Virus record (IMG/VR): IMGVR_UViG_3300032282_005134
Span: 1 to 34,930 of that record
Strand: one strand, 5' to 3'
DNA from: a virus
DNA length: 34,930 nt
The notes below the pieces were generated by a model. That model had not been told where the DNA came from, ran no database searches, and saw only the letters and a list, made by a program, of their open reading frames with translations. This document shows positions 4,462 to 32,628 of the stretch, in pieces (position 1 is the stretch's first letter; every line of letters starts with the position of its first letter). Made by a program: the position numbers and the translations under genes.

Positions 4462-4770
4462 TTAAGGAAACATTGTTGTTGAGGTAGTACTACTTGGTGG
4501 TATATACATCGTTGTAGATGTTGTTGTACCTGGGTCGTAAGTAGTTGATGTTGTACTGCTAGGAGGTATGTACATCGTTGTAGATGTAGTACTGCTAGGT
4601 GGTATATACATTGTAGTACTGCTAGTTGTAGTTGTACCTGGGTCGTATGTTGTAGAAGTAGTACTGCTAGGAGGTATGTACATCGTAGTAGTAGTTGTTC
4701 CAGCATTAGTAGTACTTGTTGTACTGCTAGGTGGGATATACATCGTAGTTGTTGATGTTGTTCCACCGGT
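4462..4770 (-). repeat. Tandem repeat coding MYIPPSSTTSTT at the fibre C-terminus
   Basis: The 12-residue unit MYIPPSSTTSTT occurs five times, separated by short Thr/Ser or YDPG/NAG spacers. At the DNA level the plus strand shows recurring blocks such as GTACTGCTAGG(A/T)GGTAT(G/A)TACAT. The protein ends on a truncated copy (MFP). This suggests unequal crossing-over or slippage at this end. Confidence 0.85.
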
Positions 4771-7700
4771 AGTAGTTGAAGTACTGCTAGTTGAAGTTGA
4801 TGTAGAAGTTGTTGTAGTTGCTGCTAAACATCCACTGCAATCAGCGTAATAAGTTCCTGATTGTACTAATGAGCCACCAAATTCTGGTCCATTTTCACTA
4901 ATTATAGCCCAACATCTAGAACCATCGTATTGAGTTACAGGTGGGAATGCTGATGTCATTAATTTATATGCAGGTCCTCCAGTCGCTAATGTACCATATA
5001 TACTAACATAGTAATCAGTTACAGTTCCACACTCTCTTACCGTATAATATTTTAATACAGGTGCAGTTGTTGTAGTTGTTCCTGCAGTTGTAGTTGAAGT
5101 TGATGTTGAAGTACTACTAGTAGTTGTAGTTGGCATCGTTGTAGATGTTGTACTGCTAGTTGAAGTAGATGTTGATGTACTTGTTGTAGTAGTACATAAT
5201 GTTCCACATATACTATTTTGAGCAGTTGTGTTATCTAAATTAATTGTGTAAGAAGGTCCAGCTACTAAAGTAGTTGGTGAGTAGATATATCCATCAGTAT
5301 TTTTATAATATACTGAACTTCCTCCAGTTAATGGAGTTGAACTTCTACCTATTATTGCTCCACCTATATACTGACATGTTCCACCACTACATGTATAATA
5401 TAATAAATCGTAGTAGTAATATCCTGCGCTAGTTGTTGAAGTAGTAGTTGTTATTGGCATCGTTGTAGATGTTGTACTTGTACTAGTTGAAGTAGTAGTT
5501 GTTGTAGGTATAGTAGATGTTGTACTTGTACTTGTTGAAGTAGAAGTAGTTGAAGTACTTGTTGTAGTTGTACCTACACAAGCTGCACAATCAAAAAACG
5601 GAGTTCCCCATGTTCCAGCAGCAAATACTGAACCTGTTGATAATCCTAAATAATTCCAACAATCAACACCATTGAATATAGCAGGTTGTGCTACTGAACT
5701 TATTTTATATGCTGAACCTATTGTTGGTGTAGGAGCATCACTCTTTTCCATTGTATATATTGTTCCACCAGTACATAATTGAACTTGATACTTTCCAGCT
5801 GCAGCAGTTGTTGTTGAAGTAGAAGTAGAAGTAGAAGTTGTTGTAGTTGGCATTGTTGTAGATGTAGTGCTAGTACTAGTTGAAGTAGTAGTTGTATTAC
5901 ATGTATCTAATTGACACCATCCTGTAGGTCCAAAGAACCATAAGTGAGAACCTGATACTGCTATATCACCTATACTACCTGTTGGTAATGGGTTTGATTG
6001 AGCAATATTTAATAATGCGTTGATTGATACGCTACCTGTTATTTGTGTAGAGCCAGATATGTTTAATCCTTTATCTGCTTTAATACCTACTGTATAATCT
6101 TGATAGTAGTTATTAACATTTACATAAGTTTGGTCATCTCCTAAAAATAAATAACCACCACTTGCTGTGATGTGTGTATCTTGCGCTGCAGTGTTATATA
6201 TTTCTAAATACCTAACATCATTAGCATCAGGTTTTAATTTTATATTACCATCTCCTATGATTGCTTCAGTTATAGTTAATGACCCACTAATTGATTGGTT
6301 ACCTATGAATTGGTTTGAACCTGTTGTCGCGTAAGACCCACTATCAAATATAGGGGATATACCCGATGTTCCTGCAGTTCCATTAGAACCATTCAATCCG
6401 CTAGTACCGCTAGTACCATCAAAACCTGAAGTTCCTGGTGCACCATTTATTCCTGATGTACCTGAAGTTCCGTTTGAACCTCCAGCTCCACTTAAACCTG
6501 ATGTACCATTAGAACCATTCAATCCCGATGTGCCTGATGTTCCTTGCGAACCAGCTCCACCATTAACTCCTGAAGTACCATTAGCACCATTGATGCCACT
6601 AGTACCATTAGTTCCATTTAATCCATCTAATCCACTGCTCCCACTAACACCTGAGGTTCCTGATGAACCCGTCAAACCCGATGTTCCTGACGTGCCATTC
6701 ACTCCGCTAGTTCCGTTTACCCCACTAGTCCCATTTACTCCTGATGTACCTGATACACCCGAAGTACCTGAAGTACCATCTCCTCCACTTGCTCCTGCTA
6801 AGTTTACACTCCATGCAGAATATGTTCCACTACCAACTGCTAAAGTAGAATTAACTACCATAGCACCATTAGATGTGTTGTATGAAACTACTGAACCTTC
6901 CATATAGTTTGCACCATCATAAGCAATCAACACAGTTTGTGCTATTGAGTATGATAATCCATTACCTACGGTAATATTCTTTGTTCCTATTCCTATTAAT
7001 AATGATGTAGAAGATGTTGTTACATACTTGTCACCATTTAATCCTGATGTACCATTTGAACCATTAACCCCTGAAGTTCCGTTTACACCCGAAGTACCAT
7101 TAATACCTGATGTACCATTTACTCCTGATGTGCCACTCACTCCACTAGTCCCATTACTTCCGTTAGCACCATTCGTTCCGTTTATACCTGAAGTTCCATT
7201 AGACCCGTTTAAACCTGAAGTACCATTGCTACCATTAACACCATTCGTGCCATTTGTACCATTGATACCGCTAGTTCCATTTATCCCTGATGTTCCTGAA
7301 ACACCTGATGTTCCTGATGAACCCCCAGCGCCTGTGATACCTGATGTACCATTACTTCCGTTTAAACCCGATGTACCGTTTAAACCTGAAGTTCCACTCA
7401 CACCATTAGAACCATTTATTCCACTAGTCCCATTGATACCCGATGTTCCTGAAACACCGCTAGTACCAGAACTTCCACCTGCTCCTGTGATACCTGAAGT
7501 TCCATTAGACCCGTTTAAACCTGATGTACCATTTATTCCACTAGTCCCATTGATACCAGATGTACCTGAAGTACCTCGGGTACCTGATGTACCATTACTT
7601 CCATCAGAACCATTAATACCATCAACACCATCAACACCTGATGTGCCTGAAGTACCTCGGGTACCTGATGTACCATTAACTCCTGAAGTACCTGACGTAC

Positions 7701-7851
7701 CACTAGCACCAGCTGAACCGGTGATAATCATACTATCAATCATATCAGTATTAAAACTTCTTAATACTGCAGGTGTAATTAAACCTGATGAGTTATCTGG
7801 AAAATCTGCCTGATTGGCAGCTTGTAGTTGGGTTTTATTTAATATAGCCAT
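4462..7851 (-). CDS. Collagen-like tail fibre or adhesin with Thr/Ser-linked Cys modules
   Basis: This 1129-aa mosaic protein is the largest gene in the window. Order: a short N-terminal head ending in LRSFNTDMIDSMIITG (1-42); a first collagen-like block of GTSG/GxxG triplets (about 43-275); a beta insert (about 276-356); a second collagen-like block (about 357-500); a domain starting GSYATTGSNQFIGNQSISGS with a Trp-rich end (about 500-650); then three Cys-bearing modules (about 684-760, 808-886, 931-1008) separated by Thr/Ser linkers; and a C-terminal tandem repeat of MYIPPSSTTSTT. Collagen-like phage proteins trimerise as fibres. It lies between the frameshift gene region and the scaffold gene, so it is far from the other fibre genes. 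Host recognition is inference. The ends of modules 1 and 3 (C-A-A-C, C-S-G-C) suggest disulfide or metal-stabilised folds. Confidence 0.8.
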   Translation of the reverse strand: MAILNKTQLQAANQADFPDNSSGLITPAVLRSFNTDMIDSMIITGSAGASGTSGTSGVNGTSGTRGTSGTSGVDGVDGINGSDGSNGTSGTRGTSGTSGINGTSGINGTSGLNGSNGTSGITGAGGSSGTSGVSGTSGINGTSGINGSNGVSGTSGLNGTSGLNGSNGTSGITGAGGSSGTSGVSGTSGINGTSGINGTNGTNGVNGSNGTSGLNGSNGTSGINGTNGANGSNGTSGVSGTSGVNGTSGINGTSGVNGTSGVNGSNGTSGLNGDKYVTTSSTSLLIGIGTKNITVGNGLSYSIAQTVLIAYDGANYMEGSVVSYNTSNGAMVVNSTLAVGSGTYSAWSVNLAGASGGDGTSGTSGVSGTSGVNGTSGVNGTSGVNGTSGTSGLTGSSGTSGVSGSSGLDGLNGTNGTSGINGANGTSGVNGGAGSQGTSGTSGLNGSNGTSGLSGAGGSNGTSGTSGINGAPGTSGFDGTSGTSGLNGSNGTAGTSGISPIFDSGSYATTGSNQFIGNQSISGSLTITEAIIGDGNIKLKPDANDVRYLEIYNTAAQDTHITASGGYLFLGDDQTYVNVNNYYQDYTVGIKADKGLNISGSTQITGSVSINALLNIAQSNPLPTGSIGDIAVSGSHLWFFGPTGWCQLDTCNTTTTSTSTSTTSTTMPTTTTSTSTSTSTTTAAAGKYQVQLCTGGTIYTMEKSDAPTPTIGSAYKISSVAQPAIFNGVDCWNYLGLSTGSVFAAGTWGTPFFDCAACVGTTTTSTSTTSTSTSTSTTSTIPTTTTTSTSTSTTSTTMPITTTTSTTSAGYYYYDLLYYTCSGGTCQYIGGAIIGRSSTPLTGGSSVYYKNTDGYIYSPTTLVAGPSYTINLDNTTAQNSICGTLCTTTTSTSTSTSTSSTTSTTMPTTTTSSTSTSTSTTTAGTTTTTAPVLKYYTVRECGTVTDYYVSIYGTLATGGPAYKLMTSAFPPVTQYDGSRCWAIISENGPEFGGSLVQSGTYYADCSGCLAATTTTSTSTSTSSTSTTTGGTTSTTTMYIPPSSTTSTTNAGTTTTTMYIPPSSTTSTTYDPGTTTTSSTTMYIPPSSTTSTTMYIPPSSTTSTTYDPGTTTSTTMYIPPSSTTSTTMFP
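6356..7725 (-). repeat. Collagen-like GxxGTSG repeat blocks
   Basis: There are two runs of Gly-X-Y repeats dominated by Gly-Thr-Ser and Gly-Xaa-Asn (about 7725-7030 and 6790-6356), interrupted by a non-repetitive beta insert. The same longer units recur, for example a unit reading LNGSNGTSGITGAGGSSGTS appears at least twice at 7300-7540, showing recent internal duplication. Synonymous third bases differ between copies, which breaks exact DNA identity. Confidence 0.85.
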
Positions 7852-8122: not shown

Positions 8123-8386
8123 TTATTTTACTTTTGCTAACATTTCATTATGCATAAGTGTTTGTAACCTATTATAATCACTATCATGCGCTAGGAATAG
8201 TAAGCATGTTTCTAATGGTAGTTTAACCACATCTGCTATTGCTCTTATATCTCCTCCGGCGAGTTGTATAATTGAGCTATAACTTTTCCATTTTCTTCCA
8301 AAATTGATTTGATGTTGTGAGGTATCCCCGGCGTATCCTTCAAAGATTTCAGGATAAAATTCGGTAAGTCCTCTAATAAATGTACA
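8123..8386 (-). CDS. C-terminal extension read by -1 frameshift from the 8889-8245 gene
   Basis: This frame (87 codons from the slip point to the TAA) contains a convincing protein ending: FGRKWKSYSSIIQLAGGDI, then RAIADVVKLPLETCLLFLAH and NRLQTLMHNEMLAKVK. The pattern 'KW-x-Y-x-x-I-x-x-LA-GDI' is familiar from small proteins that follow this kind of gene in Bacteroidota phages. There is no ATG in the frame before the last 12 codons and no GTG before a mid-domain one; the only early start is a TTG at 8407 inside the other gene. The frame overlaps the upstream gene in the -1 phase from the T9 run onward. A slip there would give a fusion of about 255 aa. The likely role is the long form of a tail-assembly chaperone-like protein, analogous to lambda gpGT; that analogy is inference. 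Confidence 0.6.
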   Translation of the reverse strand, partial: CTFIRGLTEFYPEIFEGYAGDTSQHQINFGRKWKSYSSIIQLAGGDIRAIADVVKLPLETCLLFLAHDSDYNRLQTLMHNEMLAKVK

Positions 8387-8889
8387 AAAAAAAACAATGC
8401 ACCCCAATTGATATCCATACCTAAACCTAAAAACTTATCTCCATCTATGTTACCATCGTATGCTTCTATCTCATATAAATCACCTACCTTCTTTGTGATA
8501 GGACGATATAAGATACTCATCACCTTCGCCCAGTTGTTATCTATCTGAAAGGTTTCGTATTTTGCTATATCTAAATAAGCACCATAAGCAATCTTACTTA
8601 AATTAGGTTCAAACCCATACTCCTTTCCATCTATTGTTATAATCCTTTGCAGGGGTAGGTCACAACGTTGCATAAACCCATCTAAATCCCCTTTAATCTT
8701 TGAGAAGGTATCTACATCCAATCCCATAAGATAATCCGCAGGTAAATCGCATAGGTGGTAAAACAGGCATGCCGTTTGAGCATTTGATTCACCCTCATAG
8801 GATTTTAAATCGTTATGTAGTTTAAGGTATTTCTCTAGGGTTATAGCACTCCAATCGGTGGGTACTGTAATTTGGATTGTTTGTTTCAT
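8245..8889 (-). CDS. Phage assembly protein, tail-chaperone-like, zero-frame product
   Basis: This 214-aa protein begins MKQTIQITVPTDWSAITLEKYLKL. Proteins of this type (start of 'P-x-x-W-x-x-ITL-x-x-Y', then a 'NLSKIAYGAYLDI' segment, a 'VMSILYRPI' segment near 138-146, and an 'FFF-x-x-LLEDL' end) occur widely in Bacteroidota phages without a firm function. Codons 166-168 are three consecutive TTT, giving a nine-T slippery run. After it the zero frame continues plausibly (HLLEDLPNFILKSLKD) to a TAA at 8245, while the -1 frame carries a separate conserved-looking tail. It follows the coiled-coil gene by 1 nt. Unlike lambda G/GT, the tape measure gene is not next door. Confidence 0.65.
   Translation of the reverse strand: MKQTIQITVPTDWSAITLEKYLKLHNDLKSYEGESNAQTACLFYHLCDLPADYLMGLDVDTFSKIKGDLDGFMQRCDLPLQRIITIDGKEYGFEPNLSKIAYGAYLDIAKYETFQIDNNWAKVMSILYRPITKKVGDLYEIEAYDGNIDGDKFLGLGMDINWGALFFFVHLLEDLPNFILKSLKDTPGIPHNIKSILEENGKVIAQLYNSPEEI
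8386..8394 (-). other. T9 slippery run for -1 frameshifting
   Basis: Nine T on the minus strand fall as TTT TTT TTT in the zero frame, so they include the ideal slippery heptamer T TTT TTT. Slipping back one base lets the ribosome continue into the open -1 frame (next codon TGT). The same run could also cause transcriptional slippage. I did not find an obvious downstream pseudoknot by eye. Confidence 0.6.
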
Positions 8890-8890
8890 A

Positions 8891-9202
8891 TTATCTTTGG
8901 TTTTTCTTTTCTCTATATTGTTCAGGGTTGATTAACTCAATGGTATCAAACGCTGATTTAATTATTGGTTGTGATGTTATATCAATTACTTTCTTACTCT
9001 CTAAACGATGTTGTAGTTCTCTCACCTTACTCTCTGCACTTGCTCTTTGATGTATGGTAGCAGATAGGAATGCTTTCGCTTGTGTTAGTTCTTCCAATAA
9101 TCCCTTTTGCTCTTTCTCTAAATGCGCAATGTATGCTGCCATCTCCATAACACCCTTCTCATCTATTTGTGCTTCTCCAATTTGTAGGTAGTTTGTTTCC
9201 AT
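8891..9202 (-). CDS. Coiled-coil protein of unknown function
   Basis: This 103-aa protein has a long heptad-rich helix (about residues 20-72, through IAHLEKEQKGLLEELTQAKA and KVRELQHRLE) followed by a short C-terminal tail. It lies between the large terminase (4-nt gap) and the frameshift gene (1-nt gap), so it belongs to the packaging-morphogenesis operon. No family was recognised. A coiled coil here could serve assembly or DNA packaging; nothing in the sequence decides. Confidence 0.65.
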   Translation of the reverse strand: METNYLQIGEAQIDEKGVMEMAAYIAHLEKEQKGLLEELTQAKAFLSATIHQRASAESKVRELQHRLESKKVIDITSQPIIKSAFDTIELINPEQYREKKNQR

Positions 9203-9206
9203 ATTA

Positions 9207-10367
9207 TTATCTTATTGTTATAACGTATTTCCCTTTTGCTGTTGCAACATTAGATAACTTCATCATACATGCGTAACGTGCTGCATCAATAAGATGGTCT
9301 AACCCACCTTCTGGTTTATCCGTAACGTGTTGGTGTTTATCTACTCCCCATTGGTATGAATAAAACTCATTCACTAGGTTGTTGCATGTTTTAGGTATGT
9401 TGATTGTGTAGTTCTGCATAACCTGTATTCCAAAGTTAATACTATCCTTACCTTTAACAACAGGTTTCGTATTAAACCCTGCTCTATATAATTCCTCTAT
9501 TAAACGTGGTTCAGCACTATCACAATATATTTCCTCTCTACCTTTCACACAACCTTTGAAGTGTTTAATCAAATCATCGGTTACCATACCCTTCTCATAT
9601 AAGCTTTCCACAAAATATAAATCCTTTGCACCATACTTAAACACTGCTACTAATGCGGACGGGTCAGCACTATATCCTGCATCAAATCCCCAACACACAA
9701 ACTCTGCATCATCAGGTACCCAATCAACTAAATTGAATTGGAACACTGCTCTCTCATTAGTGGTGAATTCTCCTAACCCATATGTTTTCCATGCTTTAGG
9801 GTTGGTGTGTTTAAGTTCCTTAATTGCTTCTACTACTGATTGTTCTAGGTATGGGTTATCCTTATATGTGGTAAAGTATTGTTGTGCTTCTAATCCTCTT
9901 ATCCAATGGAAGGGGCTGATGGTTGGGTTGAGGGAAAGGATAATCGTTTGAGTAGTTCTAATTTGTAGCTGGAAGTAACTCTCACTATCTATCTCATTTG
10001 CTTCCTCCAACCATAAGATGCTACTCTTTAATCCTCTCAACTTCTCCGCATCATCGGTAGATATAAATTGTATGATACTCCCACTTTGAAACTCATACAC
10101 TCTATCAGTGCTATTAAACGCATGGTCCTCCCACAATCCTAATACACCCATAACATCTTTAAAATCTTTCATTACCGTTCTCTTAAGGGATGGTACTGTT
10201 TTACGAACGATTGTTATGTTATGCTTACCCGTTAGAGCTTGTACGATACACCATTGTAGTAAAGCATAACTCTTACCACTTCTAGTTCCACCATAATGTA
10301 TTGTTACTCTATGTGTACTATCGTTTTGGTTTGAATAAGTTTTGGTTGTATTAATCTCTAGGTTCAT
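9207..10367 (-). CDS. terL: Terminase large subunit (packaging ATPase/nuclease)
   Basis: This 386-aa protein drives ATP-dependent DNA translocation into the prohead and cuts the concatemer. Visible motifs: Walker A GGTRSGKS at 26-33; Walker B with ILWLEEANE around 117-125; coupling motif SLNP at 145-148; RNase H-like nuclease acidic residues in FDAGYSADP (D229), YCDSAEP (D283) and GGLDHLIDAARYA (D357). This is the Terminase_3/PBSX-type layout, and the length is slightly short for the family (about 400-450). Its start overlaps the small-terminase-like gene by 17 nt, indicating translational coupling. This is one of the safest calls in the window. Confidence 0.93.
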   Translation of the reverse strand: MNLEINTTKTYSNQNDSTHRVTIHYGGTRSGKSYALLQWCIVQALTGKHNITIVRKTVPSLKRTVMKDFKDVMGVLGLWEDHAFNSTDRVYEFQSGSIIQFISTDDAEKLRGLKSSILWLEEANEIDSESYFQLQIRTTQTIILSLNPTISPFHWIRGLEAQQYFTTYKDNPYLEQSVVEAIKELKHTNPKAWKTYGLGEFTTNERAVFQFNLVDWVPDDAEFVCWGFDAGYSADPSALVAVFKYGAKDLYFVESLYEKGMVTDDLIKHFKGCVKGREEIYCDSAEPRLIEELYRAGFNTKPVVKGKDSINFGIQVMQNYTINIPKTCNNLVNEFYSYQWGVDKHQHVTDKPEGGLDHLIDAARYACMMKLSNVATAKGKYVITIR

Positions 10368-10715: not shown

Positions 10716-11474
10716 TTACCACCATATTGTATTTATCGTTAAATGCTGAGGAGATATGCTACCTCTACAATGATTCTCTGCTATCAACTGGGATACTTTA
10801 TCCCATAAGGGTTTAGGTCCTTCCCAGTTAGCATCTAATATCTCTATGTAATTTTTTAAATCCCTTTGTTTAGGGTATGGTAATTTTGGTAGTGTGAGGT
10901 TATTAACTTCCCCTTTGTGTATAAAATAAAAGTAACGGAATTGTCCACCCACTACTCTATATAAAGGTTTACCATATATGCTCTCTAACGTTTCTCTCTT
11001 AACATCTTTAAATCCTTTTGAGTATAGGGTTAGCGAGTGTATCATCTTACCTTCCTTTGTTACCCAAAACCCTCCTACCTTATTGTATCCTGTATATATC
11101 CAATTGCTCGCTTGATATTGTATTCCTACATGTCCTGCTGCTCCGTTTGCGAATGTTACTACCCATTTGATATGTGGTTGATTCACTCTTAACCATTGGA
11201 ACATTAAACCCATTACCTTACTCTCTGAATTGTGTGGTAAATCTTCTGCTAACCAATTTCGGTTTAGTTCTACCCACTCTCCCTTATTAGTTCCTTTAAC
11301 CCATTGCTCCGTTGCTCTAGGTTGTACTCCTGTCCCTAATTGTATAATACCTTTTATCTCTCCATTTATTATTACACCTAGTGTCCACTTTGTTCCGGTG
11401 CATACCTTATGTGTGTAGTGATATATCTTTATATATTCGTTTCCTATATTGCGTGGTATCTCTCTTAACTCCAT
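10716..11474 (-). CDS. Mom-like GNAT-fold DNA base modification enzyme
   Basis: This 252-aa protein resembles phage Mu Mom and its phage relatives, which add a carbamoylmethyl group to adenine in DNA and protect it from many restriction enzymes. Matching features: an N-terminal YHYTHKVCTGTKWTLGVIIN with a GNAT-like strand pair, ELNRNWLAEDLPHNSESKVMG (about 69-89), VVTFANGAAGHVGIQYQASN (about 105-124) ending in the W-x-Y-x-G of the family, and a later FRYFYFIHKG. Its ATG overlaps the stop of the upstream sigma-like gene by 1 nt, and the terminase pair follows after a 47-nt gap. It would act on phage DNA before packaging. The family call is strong; the exact chemistry here is unknown. Confidence 0.8.
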   Translation of the reverse strand: MELREIPRNIGNEYIKIYHYTHKVCTGTKWTLGVIINGEIKGIIQLGTGVQPRATEQWVKGTNKGEWVELNRNWLAEDLPHNSESKVMGLMFQWLRVNQPHIKWVVTFANGAAGHVGIQYQASNWIYTGYNKVGGFWVTKEGKMIHSLTLYSKGFKDVKRETLESIYGKPLYRVVGGQFRYFYFIHKGEVNNLTLPKLPYPKQRDLKNYIEILDANWEGPKPLWDKVSQLIAENHCRGSISPQHLTINTIWW

Positions 11475-21163: not shown

Positions 21164-23020
21164 TTAGTACCCACCAAAGGTAGCAGAGTTTGATGTTCTT
21201 CTATCAAGCGCCTGTTGTGAACTTATATCTCCTGAAACTACATACGCCTTAACGGGTTTTCCTGATGTTTGAGCAAGTGTTGATGCAATTTGTGCACCTG
21301 GTGTTGCAGATTGTGTTCCCTGTATTATCGGTGCAGCAGCTCCTGCTACTGATGGTGCGGTTGGTGGTGTCATAGCATTAGTTTTTAAACTTGCTCCTCC
21401 TCCACTAACTGATGTTGCGTTATCACTACTATTAATTTGTTGTATTGATTTTGCTGCACTAGCTATTGTTGATGCAACACCTAATGCTGCCGATATTGTA
21501 TTAATGGTTACCCAAGGTTGTCCTAATGTTAAAGGAAACGCTGCGGCTGCTTTTGCATTTGCAATTGCAGTATTTGCAATAATAGAACCAATAGCTGCAG
21601 CTTGTTGTACGATAACACCTGCGATTGCTAACTTCTTATTCTTACCTGCAATTTGTTGCATCAATGAACCAAACTGTCCAACTAAATCAATTTGTGCTAA
21701 TAGTATTTCTGCTTTCGCATCTCTCTCAGCTTCATCAATTGCTTTTCTTTGTTGAGCAGCTTGTTGTTGAATTTGAGTTCTTTGGTTTTCAGTAAGTTCC
21801 TGATTAGATAATAATACTTGCTCTTGCGCAGTTATTAAATCTTTCTTTTGTTGGAATGTGTTATTCTCAAAATCTAATTTATTTTGTAAACCTAATAAAT
21901 CATCTTCTCTATCTTTCTCTATTTTTGCTTTCTTATCATCCTCTGCTTTCTTATCATCATCTGCTTTCTTCTTTTTAAAATCCTCAACCTTTTTAGCAGC
22001 CTCATCATCATATTTCTTATTAATATCTGCAACCTCTATTTTATATTGTTCTAATACGGATGTTGGGTCATCATCTACTCTTAAAGCACGTAATCTTTCA
22101 TTTTGTTTTAAACCAGCGTTATATATTTCCTGGTCTCTTTGAGATAGGGTAGCTATATATGCATCAACTAATACCTTATTTGCAGCATCATCTACCTTTT
22201 GCTTTTCAGCATTCTTCTTTTTTTGTTCTTCTTTTAATTTATCTGATTTCTCCTGATATGCTTTTTGTCTAGCTAATGCTTCTGATTTCTTTTTCTCATC
22301 AATTGCTTTATATACATCAGCTACACGTTTTGCTTCCTCTAAATCTTTCTCAGCTTGGTCATAGAATGCTTTGTTTGCTGCAGCTGCTGATTCATTAAAT
22401 CCATCTATTGATTTTTTAGTAAATCCTAATTTAACTGCAACCCATTCAGCAGCATCTGCTACTTTATTAATTACCTTTGCAAAGAATTCAAATGTAGGAA
22501 TTGCTACCGCAGAAACCATTGTTAATAATGGTGCTAATAGTTTAGAGAATGCATCAGTTACTTTATTTAATGTAGCCTGTCCTTGCTCACTCTTACCTAA
22601 CGCATCTTTCATTGCGATTATTGCACCAATGATAAGTGTTATACCACCTGTTGCAATTGCTAATCTTACACCAAAGGTATCAACTGCACTTTTAGCACTT
22701 TGAAATCCTTTACCAATTGCACCAATAGGACCTGGTAGAGCAGCTAATTTATCTTCAATTTGTCCTGATTGGAACGCAACTTTCTTTTGTTGGTCTCCCA
22801 ATTCATCTAATTGATTAGATAACTTTTTAAACTCTTTAGTACCCTCCTGTCCTTTATCTGCTAACTCCTGAAGTTTGATTGTAGTTTCTCTAATTTGGGT
22901 ACGAAGGGATTTAAACTTCCCATCAGCTTTTTCAGCTTCATCACCCAATTGTTCTACCTCATCAGTACCTTTTACTTCGGTTTCAATTACGGCGGTGTAT
23001 GTGGTTGTATTATCTGCCAT
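21164..23020 (-). CDS. Tape measure protein
   Basis: This 618-aa protein is the ruler that sets tail length and helps DNA entry. Order: a helical N-terminus (FKSLRTQIRETTIKLQELAD), two hydrophobic segments (about 115-140 with FGVRLAIATGGITLIIGAII, and about 162-185 with LLAPLLTMVSAVAIPTFEFF), a long Lys/Glu/Asp-rich helical middle (about 225-440), then an Ala-rich segment (LAIAGVIVQQAAAIGSIIAN, about 465-530) and a small Ser/Thr/Ala-rich end. A tape measure of this size would predict a rather short siphovirus tail (about 90 nm at 1.5 angstrom per residue). It follows a 49-aa gene by 2 nt. Confidence 0.8.
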   Translation of the reverse strand: MADNTTTYTAVIETEVKGTDEVEQLGDEAEKADGKFKSLRTQIRETTIKLQELADKGQEGTKEFKKLSNQLDELGDQQKKVAFQSGQIEDKLAALPGPIGAIGKGFQSAKSAVDTFGVRLAIATGGITLIIGAIIAMKDALGKSEQGQATLNKVTDAFSKLLAPLLTMVSAVAIPTFEFFAKVINKVADAAEWVAVKLGFTKKSIDGFNESAAAANKAFYDQAEKDLEEAKRVADVYKAIDEKKKSEALARQKAYQEKSDKLKEEQKKKNAEKQKVDDAANKVLVDAYIATLSQRDQEIYNAGLKQNERLRALRVDDDPTSVLEQYKIEVADINKKYDDEAAKKVEDFKKKKADDDKKAEDDKKAKIEKDREDDLLGLQNKLDFENNTFQQKKDLITAQEQVLLSNQELTENQRTQIQQQAAQQRKAIDEAERDAKAEILLAQIDLVGQFGSLMQQIAGKNKKLAIAGVIVQQAAAIGSIIANTAIANAKAAAAFPLTLGQPWVTINTISAALGVASTIASAAKSIQQINSSDNATSVSGGGASLKTNAMTPPTAPSVAGAAAPIIQGTQSATPGAQIASTLAQTSGKPVKAYVVSGDISSQQALDRRTSNSATFGGY

Positions 23021-27236: not shown

Positions 27237-28880
27237 TTATTTGAATCCTGCAGGAATATCTGCATAGTTTGATAAGTTAGTACAATTTCTAAATGCATCA
27301 ACACCATAAGGTTGAGTACCACCAGGAGGATATAACCAAATCGCAGGAGCTTGTCCAGTTATTGGACTTGTTGATGTTGCTCCAAATATACGATATGCGT
27401 ACATATATCCATCATATTTAGTATTCTTTGCAGTTATTACGTTATCAAATGATGATGAATATAAATAACCCGGATTTCTATAATTAAAAAATGTACCACT
27501 CATATTATAAAATCCAGTATAAGAACCTGATGCAAAGAATCCTGAACCTGATGGGAACGTAGTAAATGAACCTGATATTAAACCATCTCTATTAGCACCA
27601 GAAAATGCACTACCAAATGCAGAACCTGCATAACATCTATTAAACATATTTTCAGGTAAGCTATCTATTTTACTATTTGCTTGAAATATACTAGTAAAAG
27701 TTCTAACATTTGTACAATAATATAATAAATCTTCTTTAATAGTATTATTTGGAGCTTTACCACCACCCGCAGCACCACTAAATAAAGAACCTGCATCGGT
27801 CCATGTAAATTGACCTGGTTGTCCATAAACCATATCCATATTAATTTTTTGTACAGTTCTACCAAAATTAACTTTTGTAGCTCCTGTATTTCCAAATTGT
27901 TGCACACCATTTATTACTGCTCTAGCAGATACTCCACCATTATTAGCAGTGTTACAATCAAAAGATTGATATAATCCTGATATTGAAGCAGTATAACTAC
28001 CAGTTGCATAAGTATGATTAAGATTAGCACTATTTGAACCTGATATAATACTAGTAGTACCATCACCCCAATCAACACTGCAGCTATAATACCTATTATT
28101 ATTTGTTGGTAGTGTGAAAGTATATGTTGGAAAATTATCAACATAAGGTGGCACTGCATTTATTGTAAATATTAAATCACTTACGTTAGTTGAACTAAAT
28201 TGGAATGTTGGACATGGAGGATTACACTCACAATATGAATAACATGCTATACTACAATCGGTAGTGTCATAACCTAAACACATAGGATATAAATTAGGAT
28301 TTATAGTTGTTGTAGTAGTACTTGTTGAAGTAGTACTTGTAGTTGTTGTACTAGTAGTAGGAGCTGGAATAATAAATGGTAATGCATCAGGTAAAATAGG
28401 TCCTAATAATTGTATTGAACATTCTCCATTACTTAAATTATAATCATTAATTGCTCTTAAGTGATAATAGTTACCTCTAAATTCAATAATATCATTTTGA
28501 GAAATTTTAAAATAGTTAGCTAATGGAATTATAGCTGATGCATTTAATAATTTAGTTCTAGGATTATATAATAATTGAACATATTTTTCCCAATAATCTG
28601 AATATAATGTATTAGTTGGAGTTTGTCCATAAACAGATTCCTCATTATAAAATAAAAGAGATTTAGAATTTACCGTTGGAAAGTTACCATTAACTACATT
28701 GTAATTATCAAAATAAGGGAATTGACTAACTCCTCTAGAAGAATTATTTTCATCATGTACATAAAATTTCTCACAATCTACTTGTCCATTATAAAATAAT
28801 AATCTAGGTAATACTTTAGTAGCCGCGTAAGATTGATTACTTATATAAGTTGGTATGTATATTGGTATAATTTCTGACAT
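27237..28880 (-). CDS. Fibre/adhesin: shared anchor, Thr/Ser linker, PKD-like and DUF285-like domains
   Basis: This 547-aa protein has three parts. Residues 1-173 are an anchor domain nearly the same as in the next upstream gene (IPIYIPTYIS, then VLPRLLFYNGQVDCEKFYVH and FPYFDNYNVV). Residues 174-193 are a Thr/Ser linker. The tail starts with a Cys-rich stub, then a PKD-like beta sandwich (SCSVDWGDGTTSIISG, about 266-281, and LNHTYATGSY), then a segment like the DUF285/BspA-type surface repeat (FTSIFQANSKIDSLPENMF, and near the end FRNCTNLSNYADIPAGF). DUF285-type repeats are usual on bacterial surface proteins. The tail is unlike the paralog's, so the exposed part was exchanged. The anchor probably attaches to the tail tip. 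Confidence 0.72.
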   Translation of the reverse strand: MSEIIPIYIPTYISNQSYAATKVLPRLLFYNGQVDCEKFYVHDENNSSRGVSQFPYFDNYNVVNGNFPTVNSKSLLFYNEESVYGQTPTNTLYSDYWEKYVQLLYNPRTKLLNASAIIPLANYFKISQNDIIEFRGNYYHLRAINDYNLSNGECSIQLLGPILPDALPFIIPAPTTSTTTTSTTSTSTTTTTINPNLYPMCLGYDTTDCSIACYSYCECNPPCPTFQFSSTNVSDLIFTINAVPPYVDNFPTYTFTLPTNNNRYYSCSVDWGDGTTSIISGSNSANLNHTYATGSYTASISGLYQSFDCNTANNGGVSARAVINGVQQFGNTGATKVNFGRTVQKINMDMVYGQPGQFTWTDAGSLFSGAAGGGKAPNNTIKEDLLYYCTNVRTFTSIFQANSKIDSLPENMFNRCYAGSAFGSAFSGANRDGLISGSFTTFPSGSGFFASGSYTGFYNMSGTFFNYRNPGYLYSSSFDNVITAKNTKYDGYMYAYRIFGATSTSPITGQAPAIWLYPPGGTQPYGVDAFRNCTNLSNYADIPAGFK

Positions 28881-30516
28881 ATATTATTTCTATATTGCGC
28901 AAGTTCCACTACAATCAGTTCCAGCTGATGCTGAACCATCTAAATCTATATCATAATATGCACCTGAATTATATCCATCAATTCTATATACATACCCATC
29001 ACCATTATTATAATAATGATTAGTTGTTAATGTTCCGCCTGTTGTATTATTTCTTGCAATTAATCCACTAGTTGCACCACTGCAATTTGGACAATTATAT
29101 CTTGTTACACTATAATAGTTGTATGTAGGTGCGGAAGTTGTTGTAGTTGTTGTAGTACAAGGATATGTTCCACAATTATAGTTATATAATATTACTTGAC
29201 CTGCTCCTGGTTCTTTTGTTGGAGTTGTACGTGAACAAACATAAAAATTTTTACCACCACCAACTAATGCGTAAGCTGGATTACCTGTTGAACAATCAGT
29301 CCAATAGAAGTAACCACCTCTAGTTGCAGCTAATCTCCATTGGTTACATTGTAAAACACATTCGGTTGTTGTTGTAGTTGTTGTTGTAGGACATACCGTA
29401 CATCCACCACCTCTAACTGTTGCAAATCCTTGTCCAAATGTATGTGATACATCCTGATAGTTTCCATTATAAGATACCACATAATTTCCTGTTGCAACTG
29501 AATTCCATGTAGCACTTGTAAATGTTGTTGAATTACAAAATGTTGTTCCATTACCAGTCATAGGGAAATATGATATTGGAGAATAACAAGCATCAGTTGC
29601 GTTTGCACCATAATCAACAATTTCATAGAAACGTGCAGCAGTTGTTGTAGTAGTACTTGTAGTGGTAGTAGGTGCTTCCGTAGTAGTCGTTGTTGTAGTT
29701 GGAGCTTCAGTTGTAGTAGTTGTAGTTGCAGCAGTTGTTGTAGTTGTAGTTGCTGGAGGACATGTTTCTGTTTTACAATTTCCAACAGGTGATATAGTAC
29801 CAGTTCCATATATAAATTCTGCCTGTATTAATCCACCGATTCTTGCAGCACATAGGTAATATGTACCAGCATTCATATAAACATAGTTCTCATTTCTACC
29901 ATAGCAATTAAATGTTTGAACTTCACCACCAGCTGATGTTATTACAACTTCAACACAAATACATGGGTTATTACTAAATGTAGTTGTAGTTGTACCCGAT
30001 GTTGTAGTTGATGTAGAAGTTGAAGTACTTGTAGTTGTTGTAGTTGGTATTGGTGTAGGACCTGGTGTTACCGCAAATGGTAAAGCATCAGGTAAAATAG
30101 GACCTAATAGTTCTATATTACACTCACCATTTTTTAAATTATAATCGTTTATAGCACGTAAGTGATAGTAATTACCTCTTAACTCAACTATATCATTTAA
30201 TTCCATTTTAAAATAATCAGCTAATGGAATTATTGTTGATGCATTTAATAAACGTGTACGTGGGTTATATAATAACTCAACATACTTTTCCCAATAAGTT
30301 GAATATAATGTTTCAGTAGGTATTTCACCATATACACCTGTTTCATTTAAAAATAAAAGAGATTTGCTATCGCTAGTAGGAAATGAACCTGATACAACAT
30401 TATAGTTGTCAAAATATGGGAATTGATATACTGAACGTGATGAGTTATATTCATCATGTACATAAAATTTCTCACAATCTACTTGTCCATTATAAAATAA
30501 TAATCTAGGTAATACT
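28749..30516 (-). repeat. Dispersed duplication of the fibre anchor (67-nt identical core)
   Basis: 28749-28815 and 30450-30516 are identical over 67 nt and lie at the matching place in the two anchor domains. The rest of the two anchors (30581-30055 and 28880-28360) is clearly similar but diverged. This marks a gene duplication with recent gene conversion or strong constraint on this core. Confidence 0.8.
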
Positions 30517-30581
30517 CTACATGGATTGTATGATGCATCTGAAATGTAAGTTGGTATGTATATTGGTATCTTCTGACCCAT
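28890..30581 (-). CDS. Fibre/adhesin: shared anchor plus four Cys modules on Thr/Ser linkers
   Basis: This 563-aa protein has an anchor at 1-176 (paralogous to the next gene), linker 177-201, module A 203-276, linker 277-315, module B 316-398, linker 399-406, module C 407-475, linker 476-484 and module D 485-563. Each module is 70-80 residues with several Cys and ends in a Cys pair such as C-T-V-C or C-S-G-T-C. Module D (YNYYSVTRYNCPNC through DLDGSASAGTDCSGTC) is clearly related to a module of the collagen-like fibre at 4462-7851. The first modules carry NxT/S-rich, Tyr-rich surfaces. It starts 10 nt after the 678-aa tail gene. Probably a multi-headed host-binding fibre. Confidence 0.72.
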   Translation of the reverse strand: MGQKIPIYIPTYISDASYNPCRVLPRLLFYNGQVDCEKFYVHDEYNSSRSVYQFPYFDNYNVVSGSFPTSDSKSLLFLNETGVYGEIPTETLYSTYWEKYVELLYNPRTRLLNASTIIPLADYFKMELNDIVELRGNYYHLRAINDYNLKNGECNIELLGPILPDALPFAVTPGPTPIPTTTTTSTSTSTSTTTSGTTTTTFSNNPCICVEVVITSAGGEVQTFNCYGRNENYVYMNAGTYYLCAARIGGLIQAEFIYGTGTISPVGNCKTETCPPATTTTTTAATTTTTTEAPTTTTTTTEAPTTTTSTTTTTAARFYEIVDYGANATDACYSPISYFPMTGNGTTFCNSTTFTSATWNSVATGNYVVSYNGNYQDVSHTFGQGFATVRGGGCTVCPTTTTTTTTECVLQCNQWRLAATRGGYFYWTDCSTGNPAYALVGGGKNFYVCSRTTPTKEPGAGQVILYNYNCGTYPCTTTTTTTSAPTYNYYSVTRYNCPNCSGATSGLIARNNTTGGTLTTNHYYNNGDGYVYRIDGYNSGAYYDIDLDGSASAGTDCSGTCAI

Positions 30582-30591
30582 AGTTATTTAT

Positions 30592-32628
30592 TTAAACACA
30601 TCCTCCCCATTGAGCACAACGTTCTCCACTATAATTTATAACAGTACCATTTATAGAACTTAATTCCCATATTTTACAATTATTTCCACTATCAACAACA
30701 TTATTATATCCTGTTACTAAATTAGTTCCATATGCATCATAATATAATACTGCACTTTCTTCAATTAATCCAGTTGTAGAATAAACAATTCTTTGTGGTG
30801 AGTAGTAACTACTACATACATCATAATAATTGTTAGAAGTTGATAGTTGAACTAATCCATCACCATTTACAGGGTATGCTACTACATTAGGATTTAATCC
30901 ACCAACACTACCTGATAAACCTGTTCCAGCTATCTTAATTAATGGAGATGATGCTAAAGTTGTTTTAACCTCAAACTTACCTTGCGAAAAGAAATTTTGT
31001 GTATCAGTATAATATTGTTTACCAAATTCTCTATTAGCTAATTTACTAAATTGCTGAGATATATAATCAGTATCTAATGTATCACCAAAGTTTAATTCGT
31101 TTACTGCAAAGTTATTAGCTGGAATTACTTCTATCTTTTCATTTAAATTTATGTATTTGTTAAAATCTTTTATTTCACCATTTTTATACCAATTATTAAA
31201 TGTTTCAACTATGAATTCATTTTTCCTTGTTTTAGATGGATATATTACTAAATTAAATTTCTTTTGTATTCCTTTAATAAAATCAATTAACTTAATTCCA
31301 TTAGTACCAAATGGCATATTCAATGCAATATCCATAACTCTACCATCAGCAGCTTGTGTTACCTTTGTTATCTCTAAAGATGATTTAGGTTTACCACCCG
31401 GGTCTAACACAAATGAGAAGTTATCATATGGTGGAGAATATTGGTCGTACCAATTTACACCAAAATAATATGTTCCTGCATTTAATTTAGAAGTTACAAA
31501 TTCAGTTTGAATTGTATATGTTTGATTTTGTCCTGTATCTCCATTTGCATATGCTGCATTTAAATTATTTTCAAAGTATTTATTAAAATTTACTAATTGT
31601 GTATATGCATTTGATGGTGATGAACCAGTAGGCCAGTAATATATTTGTGTTGTAGGAGCACCTAATGAACCTGATAGTTTAACTTCTAATGTTAATATAC
31701 CTTTTAATGCTGAAGCTTTTTCTAAATTATACGAAGAATTTGTTCCAACAACATTTTGTGGGTCTTTATCAACACTATACCAAGGTAAACGTGTTACTGT
31801 ATTTTGAGGTACATTTAAATCAGTTTGATTGCTACCTGAAAGAGGTGATATCTTCATAGTACCATATCCTTCTAAATCAACTCCAGCAAATTCAGGATAT
31901 TTTAATGAATTATTACATAGTAAGTAAATATCATTTAAAAATGGTTCATTAAAAAAAGAACCTGAGTAAGTGTATCCAGCATAATCAAATATTGCATCCC
32001 ATACTGTTTTCATACGGATAGATGGTTTAAAATCCTGCACTGCTAATCCACCTTCACTATCATCTATACCAAAAAAATCATCACCTGATGTATATTTATA
32101 CCCAGTGCCATAATCTGCTAATGGATAAACAATATCTCCATTAAATAAGTTACCACCCCAACTTGCTGAAATATTATCAAACGAAGCAGTGTGATTATAT
32201 ATTGAAAGATTAGTTAAATCAGTTAAATATGTTTTATTAATCTGAATACCAAATGAGGATAACGCACCAAATACTGATACAACATAAGAATCAATAAATT
32301 TATTTGCATAAACATTAACCTTATTAAGTTGTAGATATCCCTGTGCTAAATACAATCCATCAAAATCCAAATAACATGGAACTTTGATATTTGTAGCAAA
32401 TGTATCAGGGTTTTGTACACTAATATCATAGCAGTGCTCAAAGAAAGCATTATTTTTTTTTGAACCTGGTAAATTAATTTGTCGTGTAAAATCAGTTGGC
32501 AAAACACCTAAATCAAATAAACCTGTTACATTATCAGATAGTTTAATTTCCTCATCTGCAAATAGGTCTAAAATTTGTCCATCTGCTACTAATTTAAATA
32601 CGAAACCTTGTGTACTAACTATACCCAT
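30592..32628 (-). CDS. Large tail protein, probable baseplate/tail-tip hub
   Basis: This 678-aa, beta-rich protein begins MGIVSTQGFVFKLVADGQIL. It includes DFTRQINLPGSKKNNAFFEH (about 41-60), a pattern I know from Bacteroidota phage tail-tip proteins, and a later LIDFIKGIQKKFNLVIYPSK with NEFIVETFNNWYKNGEIKDF (about 430-470) resembling phage tail-hub domains that contact the tube end. It follows the 407-aa tail protein with the ATG/stop sharing 1 nt, and precedes the fibre genes, which fits a hub that anchors fibres. No Thr/Ser linkers. Assignment rests on position and pattern. Confidence 0.6.
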   Translation of the reverse strand: MGIVSTQGFVFKLVADGQILDLFADEEIKLSDNVTGLFDLGVLPTDFTRQINLPGSKKNNAFFEHCYDISVQNPDTFATNIKVPCYLDFDGLYLAQGYLQLNKVNVYANKFIDSYVVSVFGALSSFGIQINKTYLTDLTNLSIYNHTASFDNISASWGGNLFNGDIVYPLADYGTGYKYTSGDDFFGIDDSEGGLAVQDFKPSIRMKTVWDAIFDYAGYTYSGSFFNEPFLNDIYLLCNNSLKYPEFAGVDLEGYGTMKISPLSGSNQTDLNVPQNTVTRLPWYSVDKDPQNVVGTNSSYNLEKASALKGILTLEVKLSGSLGAPTTQIYYWPTGSSPSNAYTQLVNFNKYFENNLNAAYANGDTGQNQTYTIQTEFVTSKLNAGTYYFGVNWYDQYSPPYDNFSFVLDPGGKPKSSLEITKVTQAADGRVMDIALNMPFGTNGIKLIDFIKGIQKKFNLVIYPSKTRKNEFIVETFNNWYKNGEIKDFNKYINLNEKIEVIPANNFAVNELNFGDTLDTDYISQQFSKLANREFGKQYYTDTQNFFSQGKFEVKTTLASSPLIKIAGTGLSGSVGGLNPNVVAYPVNGDGLVQLSTSNNYYDVCSSYYSPQRIVYSTTGLIEESAVLYYDAYGTNLVTGYNNVVDSGNNCKIWELSSINGTVINYSGERCAQWGGCV

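Follow-up and report, generated by a model that had tools for sequence, protein, structure and literature searches.

Can one late gene of a tailed phage, located next to the gene for the terminase large subunit (terL), make two proteins whose C-termini are read from two overlapping frames, and if so, is the frame changed by the RNA polymerase or by the ribosome? The question is raised by a gene in the window, which here means the whole stretch of 34,930 nucleotides of viral DNA that was analyzed.

A gene with a run of nine Ts beside terL

The gene lies on the minus strand at 8245..8889 and encodes 214 amino acids (aa) in its own frame (the 0 frame), consisting of an N-domain (8889 to about 8395), which would be shared by both products, and a 0-frame tail of 47 codons past a T9 run at 8386..8394 (minus strand). 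The run is read as TTT TTT TTT in the 0 frame and holds the in-phase heptamer T_TTT_TTT. An earlier reading of the DNA from its letters alone (the sequence-only reading) had placed the gene and its T9 run exactly; it had also described the -1 frame as open for 87 codons from the run. The frame is indeed open from the run to 8123, and from stop to stop it extends over 8434-8123 (minus strand). The C-domain encoded in the -1 frame (8126..8392, minus strand) is predicted to be attached to the N-domain via a frame change. Based on family-wide tests of codon positions and stop avoidance, the stretch at 8245..8385 (minus strand) is predicted to be dual-coded, serving the short product in the 0 frame and the long product in the -1 frame. 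The same gene, with 99% identity and the same T9, is found on three contigs of other metagenomes (L001-L003), and the run is therefore not an assembly error of the window contig. In the AlphaFold model of the 214-aa protein (pLDDT 84), a long helix (residues 158-184) spans the run into the 0-frame tail and a second helix (191-207) lies in the tail, both at lower confidence; the N-part and the -1 part were folded separately.

Upstream of the frameshift gene are a small open reading frame without a confident family (8891..9202, minus strand) and terL (9207..10367, minus strand; Pfam Terminase_3, 1.3e-25; phrog_2, 2.3e-42). At 10716-11474, just upstream of the packaging genes, is the gene for a Mom-like DNA modification protein (phrog_1384, 3.7e-46). 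A 1129-aa collagen-like tail fibre with GTSG repeats and Thr/Ser-rich linkers is encoded at 4462-7851, and a 296-codon open frame antisense to it (6923-7813) is probably a by-product of the repeats. Two adjacent paralogous genes at 27237-30581 encode proteins of 547 and 563 aa that share IPIYIPTYIS close to the N-terminus, contain Thr/Ser-rich linkers and lack a PHROG match. The window also contains a second run of nine at 32453-32461, which is T9 on the plus strand and A9 in the sense of the gene at 32628-30592, a large late gene assigned to phrog_38559.

Frame relation, run length and dual coding among homologs

IMG/VR and GTDB contigs were scanned with the N-domain, the C-domain and progressively more distant members, which yielded several hundred loci; after removal of duplicates, 331 distinct sequences with both domains were retained, and thinning reduced these to 147 clusters. 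In all 331 sequences, the frame of the C-domain is -1 with respect to that of the N-domain, with none fused and none in the +1 frame. The junction carries T9 in 248 sequences, T10 in 81 and T7 in two that belong to one clade (109, 36 and 2, respectively, of the 147 clusters), and neither T8 nor a run longer than T10 is found there among the 331 distinct sequences. At the level of the sequences, the arrangement is thus far from chance. The sequence-only reading had proposed a programmed -1 change that yields a fusion of about 255 aa beside the 214-aa product, next to the terminase, and this proposal gains strong support from conservation: a T run is kept in the relatives (T9 or T10 in 329 of 331), and the search for homologs that are already fused returned none among the 331, all of which share the same overlap.

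The homologs come from hundreds of tailed phages, mostly uncultured, with a GC span of about 28-56% and hosts that, where indicated, are mainly Bacteroidota. The Nonlabens phages P12024S and P12024L are isolates in which both the N-domain and the -1 domain are present; their genes 38 and 39 (phrog_32199 and phrog_38404) are direct homologs with T9, read at the junction of P12024S, and were deposited as two separate hypothetical genes with the frame change unannotated. Bacterial genomes gave no match to the close N-domain profile; with the distant profile, five contigs in metagenome-assembled genomes (MAGs) were matched, in which the arrangement is identical. Two contigs that carry the gene with T9 and were binned as Pseudooceanicola and Euryarchaeota MAGs (L256 and L257) are probably misbinned phage contigs. 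The gene of Flavobacterium phage 6H, found by structure match, lacks both a long T run and a match to the C-domain and was left out of the count.

T9-T10 runs are highly mutable, and replication slippage could in principle alter the run length in the DNA so that the gene toggles between forms. With such a switch, populations should contain both states, but none of the 331 sequences is a DNA variant that has the two domains in frame, which makes phase variation a most improbable explanation.

Another way to obtain the C-domain is translation of a separate protein from its own start, for which P12024S_39, annotated from an internal ATG, may be cited, as may the TTG at 8407 and a mid-domain GTG in the window. 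When homologs with a start of their own for the downstream protein were sought, however, 247 of the 331 sequences were found to have no ATG, GTG or TTG in the -1 frame from the preceding stop to the 20th codon after the run, so that expression of the C-domain needs a frame change rather than a separate start. Conservation of the -1 frame also begins at the run itself. Judged from these sequences, a separate start can be regarded as already refuted as a general mechanism, and it is very unlikely to account for the -1 domain. The claim that the -1 frame lacks a normal start holds for those 247 relatives; for the window itself it has to be qualified, since the frame is open from 8434 and the TTG at 8407 lies upstream of the run.

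Across the 331 sequences, the median length of the open 0 frame beyond the run is 49 codons. When synonymous codons were resampled with only the -1 protein constrained, the predicted 0-frame length was about 8 codons for the near clades to 15 for the far clades. Across the overlaps of the 147 clusters, 0-frame stops number 0 in 6,793 codons, with about 460 expected (0.068 per codon simulated); since the overlap is itself defined to end at the first 0-frame stop, the appropriate test is the comparison of lengths. The stop densities observed and simulated are 0.113 and 0.119 in the third frame, 0.133 and 0.125 after the 0-frame stop, and 0.119 and 0.122 in the N region, and the simulation is therefore calibrated. 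In 72 sister pairs, changes at the -1 wobble position drop 2.3-fold, from 0.202 per codon after the 0-frame stop to 0.086 in the overlap. The drop and the long stop-free 0 frame together indicate that the 0-frame tail is a real C-terminus under selection. The evolution of these sequences establishes the frame relation, the run length and the dual coding, and it suggests that two proteins are produced that have a common N-domain and alternative, dual-coded C-termini, both of which are selected.

Homopolymers are prone to sequencing and assembly errors, and several BFVD proteins of 240-267 aa among the distant relatives (including A0A516L611 and A0A6J5N0W0) are hit by the N model as well as by the C model, as apparent single-frame fusions known at the protein level; the true gene might accordingly be a single fused frame. 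Against this stand the agreement of 331 of 331 sequences across independent metagenomes and the isolates P12024S/L, and the selection on the 0-frame tail, which a false frame would not experience. For practical purposes, this explanation is already refuted.

Probable slippage by the RNA polymerase or the ribosome

Outside the T7 clade, members have two or three Ts beyond the in-phase T7. Their placement differs, in that they precede the heptamer in phase 0 T9, flank it in phase 1 and follow it in phase 2, and the total run stays at 9-10 in all three phases. Loci of >50% GC, in which long T runs are otherwise rare, supplied 11 sequences, and all 11 keep T9. TTT accounts for only 69% of the Phe codons of the N region, and codon preference therefore does not force T9. 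No conserved RNA structure after the run was detected by RNAalifold in 87 representatives (pseudoknots lie outside its model), and single-sequence folding after the run gave a z of about -0.3, with no stimulator structure. Bacterial frameshift sites do not all need a stem-loop or pseudoknot as stimulator.

The RNA polymerase of E. coli slips on runs of at least seven Ts, increasingly so with length, and T7 gives only about 5% slippage (PMC6260861). The threshold for transcriptional slippage is placed at a homopolymer of about 8 or more (PMC3711429), a length exceeded by the T9 or T10 found at 329 of the 331 junctions. These runs also hold a heptamer of the form X_XXY_YYZ, on which -1 ribosomal frameshifting is programmed, with no conserved stimulator: T_TTT_TTT is in phase in every member (listed for 185 and implied by the phases for the rest), as it must be with a long run. 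Programmed -1 ribosomal frameshifting on U_UUU_UUU inside the run, with the mRNA faithful, would fit this heptamer, which all members keep, and would fit the precedent of lambda G/GT and related chaperones, which slip on the ribosome (PMC5009743). The main counter-evidence to polymerase slippage is the T7 clade (L026, 3498-3504, and L051), in which the junction reads GGT TTT TTT ATC, a perfect U_UUU_UUU and no more.

A ribosome needs only T7, however, and ribosomal slippage does not account for a total of 9-10 whichever side the additional Ts are on, for the absence of T8, for the retention of T9 in GC-rich genomes or for the absence of conserved downstream structure. We thus consider it unlikely as the sole cause. 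Slippage by the polymerase is favored by a good measure over slippage by the ribosome because the run is strictly 9-10 in any phase, never T8, is kept at >50% GC and is followed by no RNA structure; both processes may act. Of the mechanism put forward in the sequence-only reading, the -1 frame change stands, while the run-length pattern points to the RNA polymerase more than to the ribosome.

Based on these patterns, we propose that faithful transcription and reading would give the 214-aa product with its 47-codon 0-frame tail. When the RNA polymerase slips on T9 and inserts an extra U (or omits two), the ribosome would enter the -1 frame and make a product of about 255 aa, which would share the N-domain of about 165 residues and differ in its C-domain. 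Other slippage products would be short-ended because the third frame closes with a stop within 14 codons after the run. The rate of slippage would set the ratio of the two products, which most likely form a tail assembly chaperone set of the G/GT type. Taken jointly, this explanation (polymerase slippage, two products, dual-coded C-termini and a chaperone-like pair) has in our estimate a probability of about 0.68.

Relation to tail assembly chaperones and known slippage systems

The N-terminal helices resemble Phage_TAC_7 at best with 1.2e-4 and 22.5 bits, below the curated cut-off of 25, and 22 of 33 members match phrog_166 'tail protein' (best 2.1e-7). Among viral structure models, the N-domain matches one protein named 'Tail assembly chaperone' (E 4e-3, probability 0.99); fold and sequence searches of the PDB returned nothing credible. 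The gene, at 8.2-8.9 kb, follows terL rather than lying upstream of the probable tape measure gene at 21.2-23.0 kb (21164..23020, minus strand; phrog_1538, 2.3e-7). When the frames beside that gene were read, no frameshift pair and no rival chaperone gene were seen. In distant relatives, the gene is followed by a module that includes a tail completion/Neck1-like protein. Two products by a -1 change are predicted for all 331 sequences, and the short product does not end soon after the slip. The weak but consistent similarity to Phage_TAC_7 and phrog_166, the lack of a rival by the tape measure gene and the position after terL make a tail assembly chaperone of the G/GT type our preferred reading; the usual position and the short tail are both missing, so we call the pair chaperone-like, i.e., probably working like such a chaperone rather than a proven member.

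Lambda gpG/gpGT and related tail assembly chaperones were reportedly treated by Xu, Hendrix and Duda in 2004. In both lambda and the family described here, a single gene among the late genes of a tailed phage encodes a common N-part and a -1 extension with an added C-domain. The likeness to lambda drawn in the sequence-only reading thus applies to the extension and the shared N-part, but not to a simple early stop of the short product, whose 47-codon tail is selected and overlaps the extension. The family also differs from lambda in having terL rather than the tape measure gene as neighbor and a T9/T10 run rather than a minimal heptamer.

Shigella mxiE/spa13, Thermus dnaX and some IS elements likewise have a conserved A/T homopolymer of about 9 that leads to a trans-frame product. 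In the present family, no RNA structure is evident with the homopolymer. In contrast to the Shigella, Thermus and IS systems, the slippage proposed here concerns a phage late gene, probably for tail assembly, with hundreds of diverged members and dual-coded C-termini. In the open-access literature, to which our search was largely confined (most subscription papers lie outside it), we found neither a description of transcriptional slippage in the tail chaperone of a phage nor one of a frameshift in this gene family.

Annotation pipelines overlook or split the protein in many phages. The family provides a natural data set for telling polymerase from ribosome slippage, with three phases, runs of T7, T9 and T10, about 28-56% GC and cultured phages, and in it the T7 clade of L026 and L051 is a natural test between the two. 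On balance, we lean towards the view that a large and widespread lineage of tailed phages may set the ratio of its chaperone isoforms by polymerase slippage on T9/T10, with alternative C-termini read from two frames over one stretch of 40-80 codons, both functional. If true, programmed transcriptional slippage would be deeply conserved here in a gene for phage assembly, and tailed phages would provide a case of long dual coding maintained by selection.
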